Of a DNA stretch of 42,464 nt, positions 13,468 to 21,494 are shown piece after piece. Under the pieces are notes generated by a model. That model searched no databases and had not been told where the DNA came from. It saw only the letters and a list, made by a program, of their open reading frames with translations. The translations under genes were made by a program, and so were the position numbers. This stretch comes from Spirochaetales bacterium (lineage in GTDB: Bacteria; Spirochaetota; Spirochaetia; DSM-2461), in contig JAQQAM010000001.1 in NCBI GenBank assembly GCA_028532905.1, positions 1-42,464 on the forward strand, given 5' to 3'. How positions within the stretch are numbered: the first letter of the stretch is position 1; the number at the start of each line of letters is the position of its first letter.

Positions 13468-13688
13468 GCCATCAGATTCTTTCAGACTTGTACCGCTTTA
13501 TCAAGATCTTCAAAGCCCTGAATCCCAAATATGACACATAGACAAAAGTTCTATTCTCCTCGATAATGTCAGGTAAACATCAGCTTATTGGACATAAACA
13601 CCTTTTTTGTCAAACACCTCTTTATGCCCGTATTCCAGAGGTTGCACAGGAAAGGTTTGGACATATTCTCCTTATTAAGAGGTCATGT

Positions 13689-16600
13689 ATGAAAAGTATA
13701 GGAATCAATATCGGCAGCTCCAGTCTCAAAACCGTTGTCATAGAAGACGGTAAGGAACTGTGGAGTGAAGTGATCCCCCATGAGGGGGATTTCCAGAATG
13801 CTGTTATCAGCATGCTGAATGAAAAAAAACCTGATCCTGGAATTCCTCTTCTGGTCACAGGAACAGAAGGGCGCTATCTGCTGGCGGCCAATTCGGTCAT
13901 CGAGCCTGTCTGTGTGGAAAAAGCTCTGGAAAAAACAGGCCACACCGTAGACGCTGTGGTCAGTATGGGCGGTGAAGATCTGGTGGTCTACACTGTGGAC
14001 AGGAACGGAAAAATCACCAACAATTTTTCAGGCAGTAAATGTGCTTCGGGAACCGGAGAGTTCTTCAAGCAGCAGCTGGCCCGTATGGATATGACTCTGG
14101 ACAATGTGAACAGAGTCTCCGAAGAGAGCAAGGTCTGTTCCCTTTCCGCCCGGTGCTCGGTTTTCATGAAAAGCGACTGTACCCACAAGCTGAATAAAAA
14201 GGAAGCCACCAAAGATGATATCGTGGTCTCCTTAAGCGATGTGATGGCCACCAAGGTCTGTGACTTTCTGAACAGAGCCAAAATAGAATCCGGCCGTGTC
14301 CTTCTCAGCGGCGGGATCACCAGAAACAAGCACATCCTCCGGTATATGAAGGAGAAAACTCCGGATATTGAATATATAATCCCCGAGGAAGCCCCCTATT
14401 TTGAGGCTCTGGGAGCGGCTCATCTGGCTGTTGAAAATGGTTCTCCCCTGCCGAAGAGCAGCCATATTCTGAAAGACAGCAAGATCCGGTTCGACCGTTA
14501 TAAGGATCTCAAATCGGCCGCCGAAAAAGTACAGTACTTCGAGACGGAAATCGGTACGGTCAAAAAAGACCGGGAATACATCCTGGGAATTGACGGGGGC
14601 TCCACAACCACCAAGGCCTGCCTGGTGGATATTGAGACCTATGAGATTGTTGCCGCCCACTACGGCCGGACCCATGGTGATCCGGTAAGGGCACTTCAGA
14701 ACTGTATCATCGAACTCCGCAAGAAGATCAACAAGGATGTAGGGGATCCCTCGGCCATCAAAATATCTCTGGCAGCAACCACGGGTTCCTCCCGGGAAAT
14801 ACTGGGTGTATTTATGGAGACCGGTGCCGTATACAATGAGATTATCGCCCACTCCTATGGAACCACCTTCTTCAGCAAAGACGTGGATACCATCTTCGAA
14901 ATAGGCGGCCAGGACGCCAAATATGTTCTCCTGGAAAACAAGGTTCCTGTAGACTACGCCATGAACGAAGCCTGTTCCGCTGGGACAGGATCCTTTCTGG
15001 AAGAGTCTGCGGCTGGAGACCTGAATATCGCTCATGCCTGGGAAATCGGCGAGATCGCCCTGAAAGCGGAAAATCCACTGAAGTTCGGTGAACACTGCAG
15101 CGCCTTTATCAACTCCGATATCAGAAAAGCCATTCAGCAGGGAGCCCGACGGGAAGATATTACCGCGGGAATCGTCACCTCCATTGTTTCCAACTATCTG
15201 AACAGAGTTGTGGGAAACAGAACCATCGGTAAAAAAATCTTCCTCCAGGGGGGCGTTGCCAAGAACAAGGCTGTACCTCTGGCCTTTGCCATGCTGCTGG
15301 ACAAGGAGATCCTTGTGCCTCCCGCCCCCGAACTGATGGGCTGTTTCGGTGTCGCTGTTCTGGCAGGACAGAAACTTCAGGAAGGTCTGATTGAAAAGAA
15401 AATGATAGACCTGGGAGCGGCTCTGGATACAGAGATAAAGTACGAGAAAGTTTTTACCTGTAAATCCTGTGAAAACTTCTGCCCCATACAGGTTCTGAAC
15501 GTAAACGGCCACAAGTATATGTTCGGCGGACGCTGCAGCAAATACGCCAACTCAAAAAAGAAAACCGAATCCCATGCGGAAGTGATCAACTATATTGATA
15601 AGCGGAATGAGATGATGTTCAACACCTTCGCTCCTCCTGCTGAAGATTTCAACCAGAAACGAGCCTTTACCGTGGGAATTCCCCGCTGTTTTTCCATACA
15701 CAGCCTCTATCCCCTGTATTCCTGGTTCTTTCATGAGCTGGGAATCAAAACCGTTCTGTCAGACGAGATCGCCCATGAGGGTGTGGCCCGTGCCGAAAGT
15801 ACCTACTGCTTCCCTGCCGAAATTGCCCACGGAGCCGTACAGGATATTATCAACAAAAAAACGGATTATATCTTTGTCCCCCATTTCAGGGATATGCCGA
15901 GCATGGAGAAGGATGTTCACGCCAACTTCTGTCCCATAACCCAGAGCCTTCCCTACTACATCAAGAAGGCCTTTCCCCATGTTCCCGAGGAAAAACTGAT
16001 ACCTCTGATTGTGACCTTTAAATTCGGAGAAGCCAAGGCTCTTGAGTTTTTCTATAAACTGGGTGAGCAGCTCTCTATCCCTGAAAGTGAAATAAAGTCT
16101 GCTTTCCGCAAGGGAGTGAAAAAACAGGAAGAGTACCTCAAGGCATCCCGGAAAATGGGAAAAGAGGCTCTGGAAAGGGCCCGGGAAGAGGACCATCCGG
16201 TCATTGCCCTTCTGGGCCGTCCCTATAACGCCTTCACTCCCGAAGCCAACATGGGAATCCCCCGGAAATTCAGCAGCCGCGGTTTTTCCATTATTCCCTT
16301 TGATATTCTTCCCGAAGGGGATGAAGAGATCTTTGAGAACATGTACTGGTATTACGGCCAGCTGGATATGAAGGCAGCCGCCCGGCTCAAAGACGAACCC
16401 AATGTCTATGTGACCTTTATCACCAATTTCTCCTGTGCCCCCGACTCTTTTATTCTACATTATCTGAAGTGGATGATGGGAACCAAGCCCTTCCTGATCC
16501 TGGAACTGGATTCCCATTCCGCCGATGCGGGAGTGGACACCCGAATCGAAGCCTTTCTGGATATTATCGAGGGCTACCGGTCCAGGCAGAACACGGGTAT

Positions 16601-18005
16601 AACAGAGCGCTATGACAACGGTCTCCGTTTTATCAACAATGGCAAAGACCCCCTGCATCTGATGAATGAGCACAACGGGGAAAGCATTCCCATCATGAAC
16701 AATAAAAAGGTCAAAATGCTCCTCTCCAATATGGGAGATCTGTCCACAGCCATGATGGCGTCCATCGTCAGAAAAACCGGGATCAATGCCCAGGCCCTGC
16801 CGGTTGCCGACTCCCGGACTCTGCAGCTGGCCAGAAGCCATGCTTCCGGAAAAGAGTGTGTTCCCTCCCATCTGGTTCTGGGCTCGGCGTTGAAATTCAT
16901 AAACTCCGAGGAGTACAGAAAGGACGAGATCTATCTCCTCTTTGTACCGATCACAACCGGCCCCTGCCGGACAGGGCAGTATTTTGTTTTCTATGAAAAC
17001 CTCTTCCGTGATATGCGGCTGGAGAATATTGTCGTGGTGACCCTGAGTGCGGACAACTCTTATACGGAACTGGGTCCGAATTTTTCAAAGCATATGTGGC
17101 ACGGTCTTGTCATTTCTGACTACATGAAGGATGTTCAGACCTCTCTGCGGGCCTGTGCGGAAGATCCCGACAAGGCGCTGCAGATTTACACCAACCTGTG
17201 GCATGATATGATCAGAGCCATTGACGAGGACTTCAAAAATGCCTACCCCGCTCTGAAGAAAGCGGCACAGCAGATAGCACAGATTCCTCTGAAAAAAACA
17301 ATCCATGAAGTTCCCCGGGTTCTCATTGTGGGTGAAATTTACGTCCGCCGGGATGATTTTGCCGTTGATGAACTGGTCGAACTGATGAGCCGTAAAAACA
17401 TCATTGCCAAGGTCTCTGGTATTTCCGAATGGATTCATTATCTGGACTTTGTCCGGGAATATGATCTGAAAAAGAGACTGAAACTCAAACCCTGGTATGC
17501 CCGCCCCTTTGCCGAAGAGAGGAGAAAACTGATCACCCTCTCCATTGAATCGGCCTGGAAACATGCTGTGGAACGGAAGGCGAAGAGGATGCTGAAATCA
17601 ACGGATCTGATTCCCCACACCCCCCATGATATGAAGAAGATCATGCACAATACCAGTGAGAACTTTGTAAACCTGGAACTCAACTCTGAAATTGCCATTT
17701 CCAGCGGTGTGGCGGCTACGGCCATGGAGGAAGGCTATTCAGGTATAGTCAATATTTCTCCCTTTGCCTGTCTGATCGGTAGGGTTATCGAAGGATTGAT
17801 CACACCCTGGGCACGGGAAAAGAACTACCCTGTGTTCTCCCTGGAGGTGGACGGGAATATCCTGCCGCCCAATATTGTGAATAAACTGAATATTTTTATG
17901 ATGAATGTACTGCGCTTCAATACCGATCCCGATTCTTCCGAGCTTATCGAGTTCGGAGAAGAGGAAAAGCAGGGAGAAGAAGCACTGGTATCCGGAAACG
18001 ACTGA
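13689..18005 (+). CDS. Large acyl-CoA dehydratase activase (double BadF ATPase fusion)
   Basis: 1438 aa from the ATG at 13689, chosen for its GAGG ribosome site and because MKSIGINIGSSSLKTVV is the true ATPase start. Residues 1-300 are a BadF-type ATPase with Cys118 (SKCASGTG) and Cys156 (ARCSVF). Residues about 300-585 are a second copy with GIDGGSTTTK, EIGGQDAK, Cys near 428 (EACSAGTG) and Cys near 467 (EHCSAF). In both, the Cys positions match ligands of the bridging [4Fe-4S] cluster of HgdC. A CxxCxxxC cluster is at about 590. The remainder is DUF2229 plus a 2-hydroxyacyl-CoA dehydratase-like part. Known activators use ATP to drive an electron from ferredoxin into a dehydratase. The substrate of this fused group is not established. 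The regulator and NfnAB genes follow. Confidence 0.9.
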   Translation: MKSIGINIGSSSLKTVVIEDGKELWSEVIPHEGDFQNAVISMLNEKKPDPGIPLLVTGTEGRYLLAANSVIEPVCVEKALEKTGHTVDAVVSMGGEDLVVYTVDRNGKITNNFSGSKCASGTGEFFKQQLARMDMTLDNVNRVSEESKVCSLSARCSVFMKSDCTHKLNKKEATKDDIVVSLSDVMATKVCDFLNRAKIESGRVLLSGGITRNKHILRYMKEKTPDIEYIIPEEAPYFEALGAAHLAVENGSPLPKSSHILKDSKIRFDRYKDLKSAAEKVQYFETEIGTVKKDREYILGIDGGSTTTKACLVDIETYEIVAAHYGRTHGDPVRALQNCIIELRKKINKDVGDPSAIKISLAATTGSSREILGVFMETGAVYNEIIAHSYGTTFFSKDVDTIFEIGGQDAKYVLLENKVPVDYAMNEACSAGTGSFLEESAAGDLNIAHAWEIGEIALKAENPLKFGEHCSAFINSDIRKAIQQGARREDITAGIVTSIVSNYLNRVVGNRTIGKKIFLQGGVAKNKAVPLAFAMLLDKEILVPPAPELMGCFGVAVLAGQKLQEGLIEKKMIDLGAALDTEIKYEKVFTCKSCENFCPIQVLNVNGHKYMFGGRCSKYANSKKKTESHAEVINYIDKRNEMMFNTFAPPAEDFNQKRAFTVGIPRCFSIHSLYPLYSWFFHELGIKTVLSDEIAHEGVARAESTYCFPAEIAHGAVQDIINKKTDYIFVPHFRDMPSMEKDVHANFCPITQSLPYYIKKAFPHVPEEKLIPLIVTFKFGEAKALEFFYKLGEQLSIPESEIKSAFRKGVKKQEEYLKASRKMGKEALERAREEDHPVIALLGRPYNAFTPEANMGIPRKFSSRGFSIIPFDILPEGDEEIFENMYWYYGQLDMKAAARLKDEPNVYVTFITNFSCAPDSFILHYLKWMMGTKPFLILELDSHSADAGVDTRIEAFLDIIEGYRSRQNTGITERYDNGLRFINNGKDPLHLMNEHNGESIPIMNNKKVKMLLSNMGDLSTAMMASIVRKTGINAQALPVADSRTLQLARSHASGKECVPSHLVLGSALKFINSEEYRKDEIYLLFVPITTGPCRTGQYFVFYENLFRDMRLENIVVVTLSADNSYTELGPNFSKHMWHGLVISDYMKDVQTSLRACAEDPDKALQIYTNLWHDMIRAIDEDFKNAYPALKKAAQQIAQIPLKKTIHEVPRVLIVGEIYVRRDDFAVDELVELMSRKNIIAKVSGISEWIHYLDFVREYDLKKRLKLKPWYARPFAEERRKLITLSIESAWKHAVERKAKRMLKSTDLIPHTPHDMKKIMHNTSENFVNLELNSEIAISSGVAATAMEEGYSGIVNISPFACLIGRVIEGLITPWAREKNYPVFSLEVDGNILPPNIVNKLNIFMMNVLRFNTDPDSSELIEFGEEEKQGEEALVSGND

Positions 18006-18024
18006 TACGGAAAAGGAGGGAGAA

Positions 18025-18459
18025 ATGCAGCCTGATGATATTGACTGGAAAATAATCAATCTTTTACGGGACAGTCACCAGAACAACAATGCCATTGCCA
18101 GACAACTTGGTATTTCAGAGGGAACAGTCCGCCAGAGGCTGAAGAAACTCAAGGAATCCAATGTTATCAAGATCAAGGCTCTGATCAACCCTGAGGTGCT
18201 GGCGAACCAGCAGTTGGCGACCATTGCCGTGAATGTCAGTGAATCCTCTCTCCTGGAATCCAAGGCCAGAGAACTGGCAGAACTGCCCAATGTACTGGAT
18301 GTGTCCATCACATCCGGGCGGTATGACCTGTTTGTGGAAGTCCTGGTGGACTCCAACAGAGGTCTGGTCCACTTTCTGACAGAAGAACTGGCAGCTGTGA
18401 AGGGTGTCAGCTCCACAGAGAGTTTTCTTATGCTGAAAAGCTTCAACAAGTATGTTTAG
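18025..18459 (+). CDS. Lrp/AsnC family transcriptional regulator
   Basis: 144 aa from the ATG at 18025, which has a perfect AAAGGAGG five bases upstream; a longer frame reaches back into the activase gene. Residues 3-60 are the AsnC-type winged helix (DDIDWKIINLLRDS, AIARQLGISEGTVRQRLKKL). Residues 65-140 are the RAM ligand-binding domain, with SGRYDLFVEVLVDS. Such proteins form dimers to octamers and sense amino acids or other small metabolites. The gene is 19 bases after the activase and about 100 bases before nfnA, whose promoter overlaps an 18-bp palindrome. Regulation of one or both neighbours is a reasonable inference. Confidence 0.92.
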   Translation: MQPDDIDWKIINLLRDSHQNNNAIARQLGISEGTVRQRLKKLKESNVIKIKALINPEVLANQQLATIAVNVSESSLLESKARELAELPNVLDVSITSGRYDLFVEVLVDSNRGLVHFLTEELAAVKGVSSTESFLMLKSFNKYV

Positions 18460-18491
18460 CTTTTCAAGATGGTAAAAGAGATTTATCTTTA

Positions 18492-18509
18492 TTTGATCAA
18501 CTGATCAAA
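18492..18509. promoter_or_regulatory. Perfect 18-bp palindromic operator candidate before nfnA
   Basis: TTTGATCA, a two-base spacer (AC), then TGATCAAA. It overlaps the -35 region and spacer of the likely nfnAB promoter, a classic repressor position. It resembles an FNR/CRP-like site (TTGAT...ATCAA), but the half-sites are six rather than four bases apart. The AsnC-type regulator encoded just upstream is another candidate binder. Confidence 0.5.
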
Positions 18510-18520
18510 AACTGTTTAAT
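18493..18520 (+). promoter_or_regulatory. Candidate nfnAB promoter
   Basis: TTGATC, 16 bases, TTTAAT: four of six and five of six matches to the sigma-70 hexamers. It lies about 40 bases before nfnA. The palindrome at 18492-18509 covers its -35 box. Confidence 0.45.
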
Positions 18521-18521
18521 A

Positions 18522-18545
18522 CCCGCTGTCTTTTCAACAGGCGGG
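18522..18545 (+). other. Leader hairpin upstream of nfnA
   Basis: CCCGCTGT pairs with ACAGGCGGG (one bulged G) across a seven-base loop. It sits in the nfnA leader, immediately before the GGAAAGGA ribosome site, and shares its last two bases with that site. It could modulate translation or stabilise the 5' end. Confidence 0.4.
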
Positions 18546-18560
18546 AAAGGAATTTTGCAC

Positions 18561-19409
18561 ATGAATAGAATACTGGAAAAAAGACAGCTTTCCGCAGATG
18601 TTTTCCGGATGAAAATAGAAGCCCCCCTTATTGCCGAGGAGAGGCAGGCCGGTCAATTTCTGATTCTTCAGGTAGACAGGGATATGGGTGAGCGGATTCC
18701 CCTGACCATTGCCAATGCTGATGCAGCAGAAGGTTTTATCGAGATTATCTTTCAGGCTGTCGGCGCCACCACACAGAAGCTGAGCCGCAAAGAGGCCGGA
18801 GAAAGCATCGAAGCTGTTCTGGGTCCGCTGGGTACCCCCACCCTGATCGAAAAGAAGGACGGCCCCGTTGTCTGTGTAGGGGGAGGCATCGGCGTTGCCC
18901 CCATGCACCCCATCGTAAAAGCCCATAAGGAGATCGGAAACCGTGTGATCACCATAATGGGGGCCAGAAACAAGGACCTTCTCATTATGGAAGAGGAGAT
19001 GAAAGCCCTGTCGGATGAGCTGATTATCTGTACCGATGACGGCTCCTACGGCAGAAAAGACCTGGTGACAGTTCCTCTGAAGGAGCTTTGTGAATCCGAA
19101 ACGCCTCCTGCGGAAGTGGTGGCCATCGGTCCTCCCATTATGATGAAATTCTGTGCGGAAACCACAAGACCCTACAAGGTCCATACCATGGTGTCTCTGA
19201 ACACAATAATGGTAGACGGAACCGGAATGTGCGGTGGATGCCGGGTCTCTGTGGGGGGAGAAACAAAATTTGTCTGTGTGGACGGACCGGAGTTTGACGG
19301 CCATAAAGTCGATTTTGACAATATGATGCTCCGTCTAAAATCCTACAAGGAAGAAGAAGCACACCGCTGCCGTCTGGATAAAGCGGCCGAAGATCTGGAG
19401 GCAAAATAG
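18561..19409 (+). CDS. nfnA: NfnA: ferredoxin-NADP+ bifurcating oxidoreductase small subunit
   Basis: 282 aa from the ATG at 18561 (GGAAAGGA eight bases upstream; a TTG six bases earlier is the alternative). The N-terminal FAD barrel includes GERIPLTIAN, followed by the NAD-binding part with CVGGGIGVAPMHP (105-117). The C-terminus binds a [2Fe-2S] cluster: Cys224, Cys227 and Cys239, with Asp219 in the position of the unusual aspartate ligand known from Thermotoga NfnA. It resembles PyrK and sulfide dehydrogenase subunits, but pairing with NfnB makes NfnA the best call. The complex couples NADPH oxidation to reduction of ferredoxin and NAD+, reversibly. One base separates it from nfnB. Confidence 0.92.
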   Translation: MNRILEKRQLSADVFRMKIEAPLIAEERQAGQFLILQVDRDMGERIPLTIANADAAEGFIEIIFQAVGATTQKLSRKEAGESIEAVLGPLGTPTLIEKKDGPVVCVGGGIGVAPMHPIVKAHKEIGNRVITIMGARNKDLLIMEEEMKALSDELIICTDDGSYGRKDLVTVPLKELCESETPPAEVVAIGPPIMMKFCAETTRPYKVHTMVSLNTIMVDGTGMCGGCRVSVGGETKFVCVDGPEFDGHKVDFDNMMLRLKSYKEEEAHRCRLDKAAEDLEAK

Positions 19410-19410
19410 T

Positions 19411-20898
19411 ATGAGTGAATATAAATCCCCTGAACATCTGGCCCGGGAGGCTGCGGAACTGTGGAAGAATTTGGACCCCTCAGCTCTGAATGCCAAAAGC
19501 AGAAAAGATATACCCCAGCAGGATATGCCCAGCCAGGATCCCTCAATCCGGAGATCCAATATGCAGGAAGTGGCCACCGGTTATACGGAAGAGCAGGTAT
19601 TTGTGGAGTCAGCCCGCTGTCTTCAGTGCAAGAATGCCCCCTGTATTCAGGGCTGTCCCGTCAGCATCAATATCCCCGGATTCATTGAAAAAGCAGGGCA
19701 GGGCCGGTTCGGGGAAGGAATCGACATTATTAAAGAGAGCAGCATGCTCCCGGCCATCTGCGGACGGGTCTGTCCCCAGGAAAAACAGTGTATGGAAACC
19801 TGTACCCTTGGTAAGATTCTCAAAGATCCTGAAAAATCTGTCGCCATCGGCCGGATTGAGCGCTTTTTGGCAGACTGGGAGAGTGAGAACCGTCCGGAAG
19901 GTAATATTACCGTCAAAGCGGACAGCGGGAAGAAAGTCGCCATTATCGGAAGCGGACCTTCCGGACTGACAGCGGCAGCGGACCTGAGAAAAGAGGGACA
20001 CCATGTCACCATTTTTGAAGCCTTTCATAAACCCGGCGGAGTAACGGTATACGGAATCCCCGAGTTCAGACTGCCCAAGGCCATTGTGGAAAAAGAGGTG
20101 GAAGGCCTGATGAAAATGGGAGTCAAATTCGAAAATAACTTCCTGGTGGGACGGACACGAAAACTGAAGGATCTGATGGAGAAAGACGGATTCAACGCCG
20201 TCTATATAGCCTCGGGAGCCGGACTGCCCAAATTCATGCATATTGAAGGGGAAAACCTGGTGGGGGTGTTTTCGGCAAATGAGTTTCTGACCCGCTCCAA
20301 CCTGATGAAAGCCTATGACAGTAATGCGGAAACCCCCATTTACAAAGCGAAAAATGTGGCAGTCTTCGGGGGCGGTAACGTCGCTATGGATGCTGCCAGA
20401 ACCGCTGTCCGGATGGGCGCCGAAAAGGTATACATCATCTACAGAAGAACAGAAAAGGAGATGCCCGCCCGGGTTGAAGAAATTCACCATGCCCACGAAG
20501 AAGGCGTTATCTTCAAGATTCTGACCAATCCGGTACGGATCATCGGAGATGATCAGGGCCGGGTCAGAGCCATCGAATGCCAGAAATATGAGCTGGGAGA
20601 ACCGGATGCTTCCGGCAGACGCCGTCCGGTTCCCATCGAAGGCAGCGAGTTTGAAATAGAGGTGGAAACCTGTATTCCCGCCATCGGCAATGCCTCCAAC
20701 CCCCTGATCAGGCAGACCACTCCCGGTCTGGAATTTTCAGAGAGGGGAACAGTCCTGGTCAATGATGATCAGAAAACCAGTCTGGACCATGTTTATGCCG
20801 GGGGAGACATCTCCCAGGGAGCTGCAACGGTCATCCTGGCTATGGGAGACGGCCGGCGGGCAGCGGCCGCTATCAATAAAGATCTGGAAAAGATGTAA
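19411..20898 (+). CDS. nfnB: NfnB: NADPH-binding large subunit, GltD-like
   Basis: 495 aa. Two N-terminal [4Fe-4S] sites are visible: Cys70, Cys73, Cys78, Cys82 and Cys117, Cys121, Cys127, Cys131. The FAD motif VAIIGSGPSGLTAAADL is at about 176-192, and the second dinucleotide motif VAVFGGGNVAMDAARTAV is near 315. The C-terminal GDISQGAATVILAMGDGRRAA completes the GltD-type fold. Alone it could be read as the glutamate synthase small chain, but no large chain gene is nearby, and the NfnA gene one base upstream with GGAGG coupling supports NfnB. The transcript ends at the strong hairpin immediately downstream. Confidence 0.92.
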   Translation: MSEYKSPEHLAREAAELWKNLDPSALNAKSRKDIPQQDMPSQDPSIRRSNMQEVATGYTEEQVFVESARCLQCKNAPCIQGCPVSINIPGFIEKAGQGRFGEGIDIIKESSMLPAICGRVCPQEKQCMETCTLGKILKDPEKSVAIGRIERFLADWESENRPEGNITVKADSGKKVAIIGSGPSGLTAAADLRKEGHHVTIFEAFHKPGGVTVYGIPEFRLPKAIVEKEVEGLMKMGVKFENNFLVGRTRKLKDLMEKDGFNAVYIASGAGLPKFMHIEGENLVGVFSANEFLTRSNLMKAYDSNAETPIYKAKNVAVFGGGNVAMDAARTAVRMGAEKVYIIYRRTEKEMPARVEEIHHAHEEGVIFKILTNPVRIIGDDQGRVRAIECQKYELGEPDASGRRRPVPIEGSEFEIEVETCIPAIGNASNPLIRQTTPGLEFSERGTVLVNDDQKTSLDHVYAGGDISQGAATVILAMGDGRRAAAAINKDLEKM

Positions 20899-20904
20899 GT
20901 GATG

Positions 20905-20936
20905 AGAGGCAGCTGAAATCAGCTGTCTCTTTTTTT
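20905..20936 (+). terminator. Rho-independent terminator after nfnB
   Basis: A 12-bp stem (AGAGGCAGCTGA with TCAGCTGTCTCT, one G-U pair) and a two-base loop, followed by six further T. The stem lies seven bases after the nfnB stop. Its right arm and T-run are the last codons of hisE on the other strand. The minus-strand direction lacks a T-run. Confidence 0.85.
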
Positions 20937-21494
20937 CAGTTCTCCCAGAACCTCGGACATAGACAGCCCCTGGTCTTCCAGAAGAACCATCAGGTGATAG
21001 ATCAGATCGGCGGATTCATAAACCAGATCTTCAGGATTCTCGGAGAGAACCAGTTCAATCGCCTCTTCTCCGCATTTCTTTTTGATCTTTCCTGTCCCTT
21101 TCTCGAACAGGTGGGTGGTATAGGATCCGGCGGGCATTTCCTTATGTCTTTTCTTAATGGTGGATGTCAGGGAAGCGAGAATTCCCTCCTCCAGTTCGGA
21201 GCTCTGTTCCAGCGCATCATGCTCTTCAATGTCCTGTTCGGCTATAACTCCCTCGTAGGCCCGTCCCCGGGCACCGGCTGGGAGAAGGGCATAGTAATGA
21301 TTGTCCCTTTTTTCCAGAACCTTGAAGGCACCGTCCCCTGCGTAGGGAAGGATTCTGCCGGTTTCCGGATGGGTCAGCCAGAGGAGTCCCTGTTCCCGGC
21401 TTTTGGAAAAACCCTTTTCATCCATCAGAGCAGCGCTGGTCTGCCCCCCTTCCACTTCAATAACCAGTCCCAGTACTGTTCCGCGGCTCACCAC
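20919..21494 (-). CDS. hisE: Phosphoribosyl-ATP pyrophosphatase with eroded HisI-like domain
   Basis: 191 aa, the length of a HisIE fusion. Residues about 100-190 are a clear HisE domain (KKKCGEEAIELVL, ESADLIYHLMVLLEDQGLS), which hydrolyses phosphoribosyl-ATP to phosphoribosyl-AMP in histidine synthesis. Residues 1-95 align in spacing with HisI (SREQGLLWLTHPETG where HisI has TLETGxxHYWSRSR, then KVLEKRDNHYYALL where HisI has the DCD metal motif). The zinc- and magnesium-binding Cys and Asp residues (DCD, CHTG, SCF) are absent. Cyclohydrolase activity is therefore unlikely. The start is GTG with GAGGAG upstream, overlapping the hisA stop by seven bases. A separate hisI should exist elsewhere if the pathway is complete. 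Confidence 0.87.
   Translation of the reverse strand: MVSRGTVLGLVIEVEGGQTSAALMDEKGFSKSREQGLLWLTHPETGRILPYAGDGAFKVLEKRDNHYYALLPAGARGRAYEGVIAEQDIEEHDALEQSSELEEGILASLTSTIKKRHKEMPAGSYTTHLFEKGTGKIKKKCGEEAIELVLSENPEDLVYESADLIYHLMVLLEDQGLSMSEVLGELKKRDS

Follow-up and report, generated by a model that had tools for sequence, protein, structure and literature searches.

A giant fused activase of a spirochaete and its AsnC and NfnAB neighbours

Do genes that stand in a row on one strand necessarily serve one reaction? The question is raised by positions 13,689 to 20,898 of contig JAQQAM010000001.1 from a Spirochaetales bacterium (assembly GCA_028532905.1; the whole stretch analysed, of 42,464 nucleotides, is called the window below), where a giant fused activase of 1438 amino acids is followed by an Lrp/AsnC regulator and by NfnA and NfnB, the small and large subunits of a ferredoxin:NADP oxidoreductase. 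A preliminary description of this DNA saw here a redox module, built around an activase of a group whose target is unknown. The module did not survive comparison with other genomes. We think that the giant is probably (at a probability of roughly 0.6) a single-chain reductase or dehydratase, so far uncharacterised, that is driven by ATP, works at low potential and draws on reduced ferredoxin, and that it has AsnC and NfnAB beside it by local history.

Anatomy of the giant protein

The activase gene (13689..18005, + strand) is an open reading frame whose product exceeds the cut-offs of TIGR00241 (238.5 bits in ATPase 2, against a curated 125.4) and PF01869 (176.2 against 31.5), and thus belongs to the BadF/BcrA/HgdC-type activase family; it also exceeds that of PF09989, or DUF2229 (193 against 29.4). 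It had been described as a double-ATPase activase with an internal dehydratase-like part, and both statements hold. Two activase-type ATPases lie within residues 1-566. ATPase domain 1 (residues ~1-250, 13689..14438) is MbdP-like by phmmer and carries C118 and C156, while ATPase domain 2 (residues ~296-566, 14574..15386) carries C429 and C470, resembles HadI, HgdC and MbdQ in sequence and fold (E 1e-20 for HadI) and has intact catalytic motifs, with D302 and GGQD 406-409 invariant. The two cysteines of each unit are suited to a shared bridging [4Fe-4S] cluster, as expected of an activase. The ATPase part closes with C591-x2-C594-x3-C598-x17-C616 (CxxCxxxC-x17-C, 15459..15536), a probable extra [4Fe-4S] site if the cluster type may be judged from the cysteines. 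In the AlphaFold 2 (AF2) model of residues 1-640 (predicted local distance difference test, pLDDT, 87.4) the nearest structures are HadI, MbdQ and HgdC.

The dehydratase-like part consists of D1 (residues ~655-1000, 15651..16688), which contains DUF2229 and C707, C748 and C916, and of D2 (residues ~1003-1425, 16695..17963), which repeats D1 within the chain (hhalign E 4e-8) and has C1057, C1093 and C1361 in register with the three cysteines of the first copy. D1 aligns with the HGD-D dehydratase subunits at an hhalign E of 1e-12, and D2 at 1.8e-5, limited to its final 60 residues. A profile of residues 565-1438 found no match among PDB sequences, and it was fold comparison alone that found relatives: the AF2 model of this part (mean pLDDT 85.6) matches HadBC (2-hydroxyisocaproyl-CoA dehydratase; Z 14.1), BzdNO (13.6), DCCP (13.1) and MbdON (12.2), all ranking well above unrelated folds. 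The HadBC match of D1 extends over 269-271 residues with a root-mean-square deviation of 4.2, so that the HGD-D fold is shared by D1 and, through the internal duplication, by D2.

Conservation of the 14 cysteines is complete or almost so (at least 98%) in 91 giants of type A, the subfamily of the window's protein, and 20 of type B, the latter being of much lower identity and yet having the same 14. The four-cysteine motif 591-616 is kept in these 111 giants and at the C-terminus of 12 of 12 stand-alone ATPases, and the three-cysteine set of each of D1 and D2, as for a site-open [4Fe-4S] cluster, is conserved in the 111 giants and in 12/12 split proteins. What separates the two subfamilies is residue 7. 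Every type-A protein with a residue there (90/90) has Asn7 (13707-13709) in place of the phosphate-1 Asp of ATPase 1, and type B keeps Asp in 19 of 20; Asn7 is, by alignment, a diagnostic mark of type A. Because of this replacement, ATPase domain 1 may bind ATP without readily hydrolysing it.

Fused and split forms, and the known enzymes

Twelve of 40 relatives have an orthologue of the activase, with 62-89% identity, and there are 80 further loci, mostly in Spirochaetes and Syntrophaceae, and the giant family of any type is present in 36 of 41 genomes. The Smithella/Syntrophaceae giants (L074, L083, L085, L096, L107, L119, L123, L127, L128) are 63-65% identical to the spirochaete-type giant of the window, which suggests that the gene may have moved between phyla. 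The window's genome itself has a second giant (G000:C23:1035-5324, L047), of type B and 26% identical, preceded by two small genes of which the nearer overlaps it; the layout is the same in congener G004 (L195).

In Clostridia the same parts are encoded by three genes that overlap one another, first D1, then D2, then the ATPase, at all 12 loci read. In these split proteins the ATPase ends with the four-cysteine motif, and the 12 cysteines matching those of the giant are invariant, namely two in ATPase 2, four in the motif and three each in D1 and D2. Clostridial operons thus have one ATPase, placed last, whereas the giant has it first and duplicated; since the parts are the same, we regard the giant as a fusion of a three-part system in which the ATPase was duplicated and put first. 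No further constant partner stands around the split genes at the 12 loci. At one of the clostridial loci (L250, G065:C7, 7639-7998) the start of an ald-like gene lies a few kb downstream of the split operon, with a corrinoid-protein-like gene between them.

The absence of separate dehydratase subunits had been noted from the window and extends to its whole genome and to five congeners, where no HGD-D subunit was found. Among the 41 genomes, HGD-D rises above the cut-off in four, the hit in one of these being the giant itself, so that separate subunits occur in 3/41. The suggestion that the fused protein is self-contained is thus probably right, the more so as the same parts recur in 12/12 split operons. 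That the giant would instead serve as activator of a 2-hydroxyacyl-CoA dehydratase or benzoyl-CoA reductase whose separate subunits lie elsewhere in the genome is very improbable: its ATPase domain does belong to that activase family, but such subunits are present in three genomes against 36 for the giant, and for the window's organism, which has no HGD-D protein, we reject this role, barring an unrecognised or unassembled subunit.

Among known systems, the class I benzoyl-CoA reductases (BzdNOPQ, MbdONPQ) likewise combine two unlike ATPases with two unlike dehydratase-fold units, MbdQ matching ATPase 2 of the giant and MbdP ATPase 1. The cysteine spacing of D2 (36 and 268 residues) resembles that of the three-cysteine site of BzdO, Cys95/128/380, with spacings of 33 and 252 (PMC11971306), and because of this likeness our guess would be that D2 holds the active site. 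The giant differs from these reductases in being all one chain and in its extra CxxCxxxC-x17-C site; with three cysteines per catalytic-type domain it would also be without the six-cysteine [8Fe-9S] site of BzdN. The 2-hydroxyacyl-CoA dehydratases (HadBC with HadI, HgdAB with HgdC) give the best fold matches and have three-cysteine sites in both halves, but they consist of separate subunits with a homodimeric activator, whereas the giant is fused and its two ATPase domains are unlike. With the double-cubane cluster protein and its reductase (DCCP:DCCP-R) the fold of D1 and the ATPase are shared, but DCCP binds [8Fe-9S] where the giant has three cysteines per domain. A double-cubane [8Fe-9S] site in D1 or D2 was accordingly rejected, six cysteines being needed against three invariant ones. 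Since neither the six-cysteine site nor the HGD-D Pfam family was found in the giant, we file it as an uncharacterised fused variant, which would work like the dehydratase and benzoyl-CoA reductase systems but is not counted as a member of those enzymes.

Neighbours of the activase gene

The four genes do follow one another on the + strand as first described: after the activase come the Lrp/AsnC regulator (18025..18459; PF13412/PF01037), NfnA (18561..19409; NF004862) and NfnB (19411..20898; TIGR01316/NF009414). The gap between activase and AsnC is 19 nt and that between AsnC and NfnA 101 nt, and a strong terminator-like hairpin with a 12-bp stem and TTTTT stands 3' of nfnB (20904..20931, + strand). 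Upstream lies the divergent mnmA and downstream the convergent hisE, hisA and pyrC, the last two named from sequence. The gene string is therefore real, and its order by itself makes no module.

A sigma-70-like promoter of the activase, TAGACA-17-GATAAT (13539..13567, + strand), is a pattern match from a consensus scan, and both hexamers are kept in the five of five congeners compared. A longer activase starting at ATG 13566 was rejected because that codon overlaps this conserved promoter-like element; as the ATGAAAAGTAT start of the 1438-residue protein is itself conserved, 13689 is the likely start. Between asnC and nfnA (~18494-18511) the near-palindrome TTTGATCAACTGATCAAA is confined to the window's genome and does not occur in the congeners. 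In the HisE-like gene (20919-21494, - strand) about 100 N-terminal residues have no Pfam match at E 0.001; they are possibly a decayed HisI half.

Whether the string is a module, with NfnAB supplying reduced ferredoxin to the activase and AsnC controlling both as one operon for one reaction, depends on what relatives keep. The single strand, the short gaps and the hairpin speak for it, as does the order kept in four congeners. The same four congeners, however, also keep mnmA, hisE, hisA and pyrC, and because the flanking genes are kept too, general synteny suffices to explain the conservation. Outside the genus this arrangement occurs at none of 88 loci, for which the sequence downstream of the activase reaches at least 700 nt in 74 cases and at least 3 kb in 53. 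Closest to an exception come L065, where NfnAB is found about 2 kb downstream but on the opposite strand, and L055, whose AsnC (38% identical) lies about 3 kb away, again on the opposite strand. In congener G005 AsnC-NfnAB persist although the activase is missing, and conversely G035, which is 99% complete, has a 65% identical type-A activase and neither an NfnA nor an AsnC orthologue. Conservation of the neighbours had been named beforehand as one point on which the module could fall, and it did fall there, the set being confined to one genus within a wholly syntenic block. AsnC and NfnAB are neighbours of the activase in one genus and no conserved module, and we consider a functional module improbable.

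Elsewhere, the constant neighbours of giants (named from sequence reading) are lineage-specific only: termite-gut Treponema-type loci have a serine acetyltransferase-like gene downstream in 14 cases and a Fur/PerR-like gene upstream in 10, and Syntrophaceae-type loci have an atpB-like gene upstream in nine and a MobA-like gene downstream in 10. For this reason we draw no functional hint from these contexts.

How, then, did the activase come to lie here? G005, which lacks a type-A activase, has the order mnmA<>ald-AsnC-nfnAB-hisE, then hisA and pyrC, with an alanine dehydrogenase gene (ald, TIGR00518) exactly where the window's activase sits, between mnmA and AsnC. In eight relatives ald directly precedes the AsnC orthologue (G005, G009, G011, G019, G021, G029, G040 and, with a partial ald, G023), and in six of them (G009, G011, G019, G021, G029, G040) the gap is a few nt or a small overlap; from this we take the window's AsnC to be an ald regulator by descent, with the activase in the ald slot. 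AldR of Mycobacterium tuberculosis, an Lrp/AsnC protein, reportedly controls ald. The AsnC orthologues in the eight relatives resemble such AldR-type regulators in adjoining ald, directly downstream of it, but in the window the activase has taken the place of ald, and the role of the regulator is a predicted one. NfnAB appears to belong to an older neighbourhood, since in G012 it lies near hisE and pyrC without activase or AsnC. The most economical account has the activase replacing ald in front of the old ald regulator; it would have taken this slot with nfnAB already present downstream.

The swap might be more than an accident, the activase having been recruited within the genus under an amino-acid-sensing AsnC once ald was displaced, perhaps for the fermentation of alanine or another amino acid. 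The 19-nt gap, the presence of the arrangement in all four congeners having type A, the former ald slot and a second giant in G002 (C288, L191), 60 nt downstream of another ald, agree with such a recruitment. Against it, no operator shared by the activase promoter and the G005 ald rose above shuffles, other giants lie in unrelated contexts, and the window's genome still has a different ald, at C281; we hold recruitment to be possible but rather unlikely. As to the block of the second G002 giant, in G000:C281 (L192) and G004:C15 (L197) the gene right after ald encodes a MATE-type transporter and there is no giant, and in G003 (L050) a giant precedes the MATE-type transporter gene with no ald. 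It looks as if giants are gained and lost as single genes, on two occasions at an ald slot.

Electron source and reaction

The genes at 18561-20898 encode an enzyme of the NfnI type (NADH-dependent ferredoxin:NADP oxidoreductase) as opposed to other Nfn/GltD types: the nearest solved structure is 5jca_S for NfnA (E 4e-82, 279 bits, against 169 for 5vj7_B) and 4ylf_B for NfnB (E 4e-164, 550 bits, against 424 for 5vj7_A), the solved bifurcating NfnI enzymes being 5jca and 4yry/4ylf. It could therefore reduce ferredoxin, as the module supposed. Beyond the genus, however, it shows no linkage to the activase, and the window's genome has a second NfnAB (G000:C148:7340-9693, L174), whose subunits are 74% and 68% identical to the window copies. 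Among 23 good genomes (at least 90% complete, at most 5% contaminated), a strong NfnA is absent from eight, and five of these carry a giant (G009, G030, G034, G035, G036). NfnAB as dedicated donor is rejected on this ground and on that of the neighbourhood. The giant family and pyruvate:ferredoxin oxidoreductase (PFOR), on the other hand, are absent from the same three of the 23 genomes (G033, G037, G038), a coincidence with a chance of 1/1771 if the genomes were independent. Presence of the giant follows PFOR, not NfnAB, and because of this pattern, and of the giants in genomes without NfnA, reduced ferredoxin from general metabolism appears to be the more likely donor.

We would picture the reaction as follows. 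A ferredoxin-level electron from PFOR-type metabolism would enter the ATPase part with no dedicated partner, possibly through the four-cysteine site 591-616, and would then reach a [4Fe-4S] cluster held between the two ATPase domains by C118, C156, C429 and C470. Binding and hydrolysis of ATP, chiefly in domain 2, would push it to the [4Fe-4S] cluster of D1 (C707/C748/C916) and next to the three-cysteine cluster of D2 (C1057/C1093/C1361), where the substrate would be reduced or dehydrated. In this scheme the domains and their folds, the duplication, the invariant cysteines, the split three-gene form, the lack of separate dehydratase subunits and the pattern of presence are observed, and we infer the cluster types, the direction and order of electron flow and the domain of the active site.

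Among the activating enzymes that depend on ATP are some whose target is a protein-bound cofactor, for example a corrinoid, which they reduce, and the giant could by analogy be a reductive maturation or repair ATPase acting on another metalloprotein and not on a small molecule. The want of a known substrate, the varied gene contexts and the wide distribution, which includes genomes with little else in common, would all suit such a role. The giant has, however, its own dehydratase-like pair with three-cysteine sites, as in substrate-acting enzymes, and no constant protein partner was found, so that we regard this role as possible but rather unlikely.

Several points weigh against a ferredoxin-fed single-chain reductase or dehydratase as well. 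The Fe-S clusters of the giant are predicted from cysteines. Pfam HGD-D (PF06050) has no match in it at E 0.001, and AF2 modelled it as two overlapping pieces, 1-640 and 565-1438, under a limit of 1200 residues. The PFOR correlation consists of three absences among genomes that are related and not independent, and DUF2229 is present in Thermus, Deinobacterium and Lactococcus, so that the family as a whole does not depend on strict ferredoxin anaerobiosis. The literature found holds no biochemistry for the giant family, and the literature searched, whose coverage did not extend to subscription papers and the main DCCP papers, holds no study of the fused form.

For the reading of operons, these results mean that a gene swap beside an old regulator can mimic one, and that an attractive lead, NfnAB as a donor reserved for the giant, can be dropped as wrong. 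It is conceivable, if not the likelier outcome, that the giant would prove to be a nitrogenase-like one-chain machine, with an asymmetric double ATPase, its domain 1 bearing the D-to-N change of type A at the catalytic aspartate, and with four Fe-S sites as an electron chain of its own, carrying out a reaction beyond the known radical dehydratases and reductases and kept by many ferredoxin-based anaerobes. The family was known but unstudied, and it can now be tested, given one gene with all the parts, clostridial subunits that are separable, and 14 named cysteines. A widely kept ATP-driven low-potential enzyme without a known substrate marks a real gap in what is understood of anaerobic metabolism.

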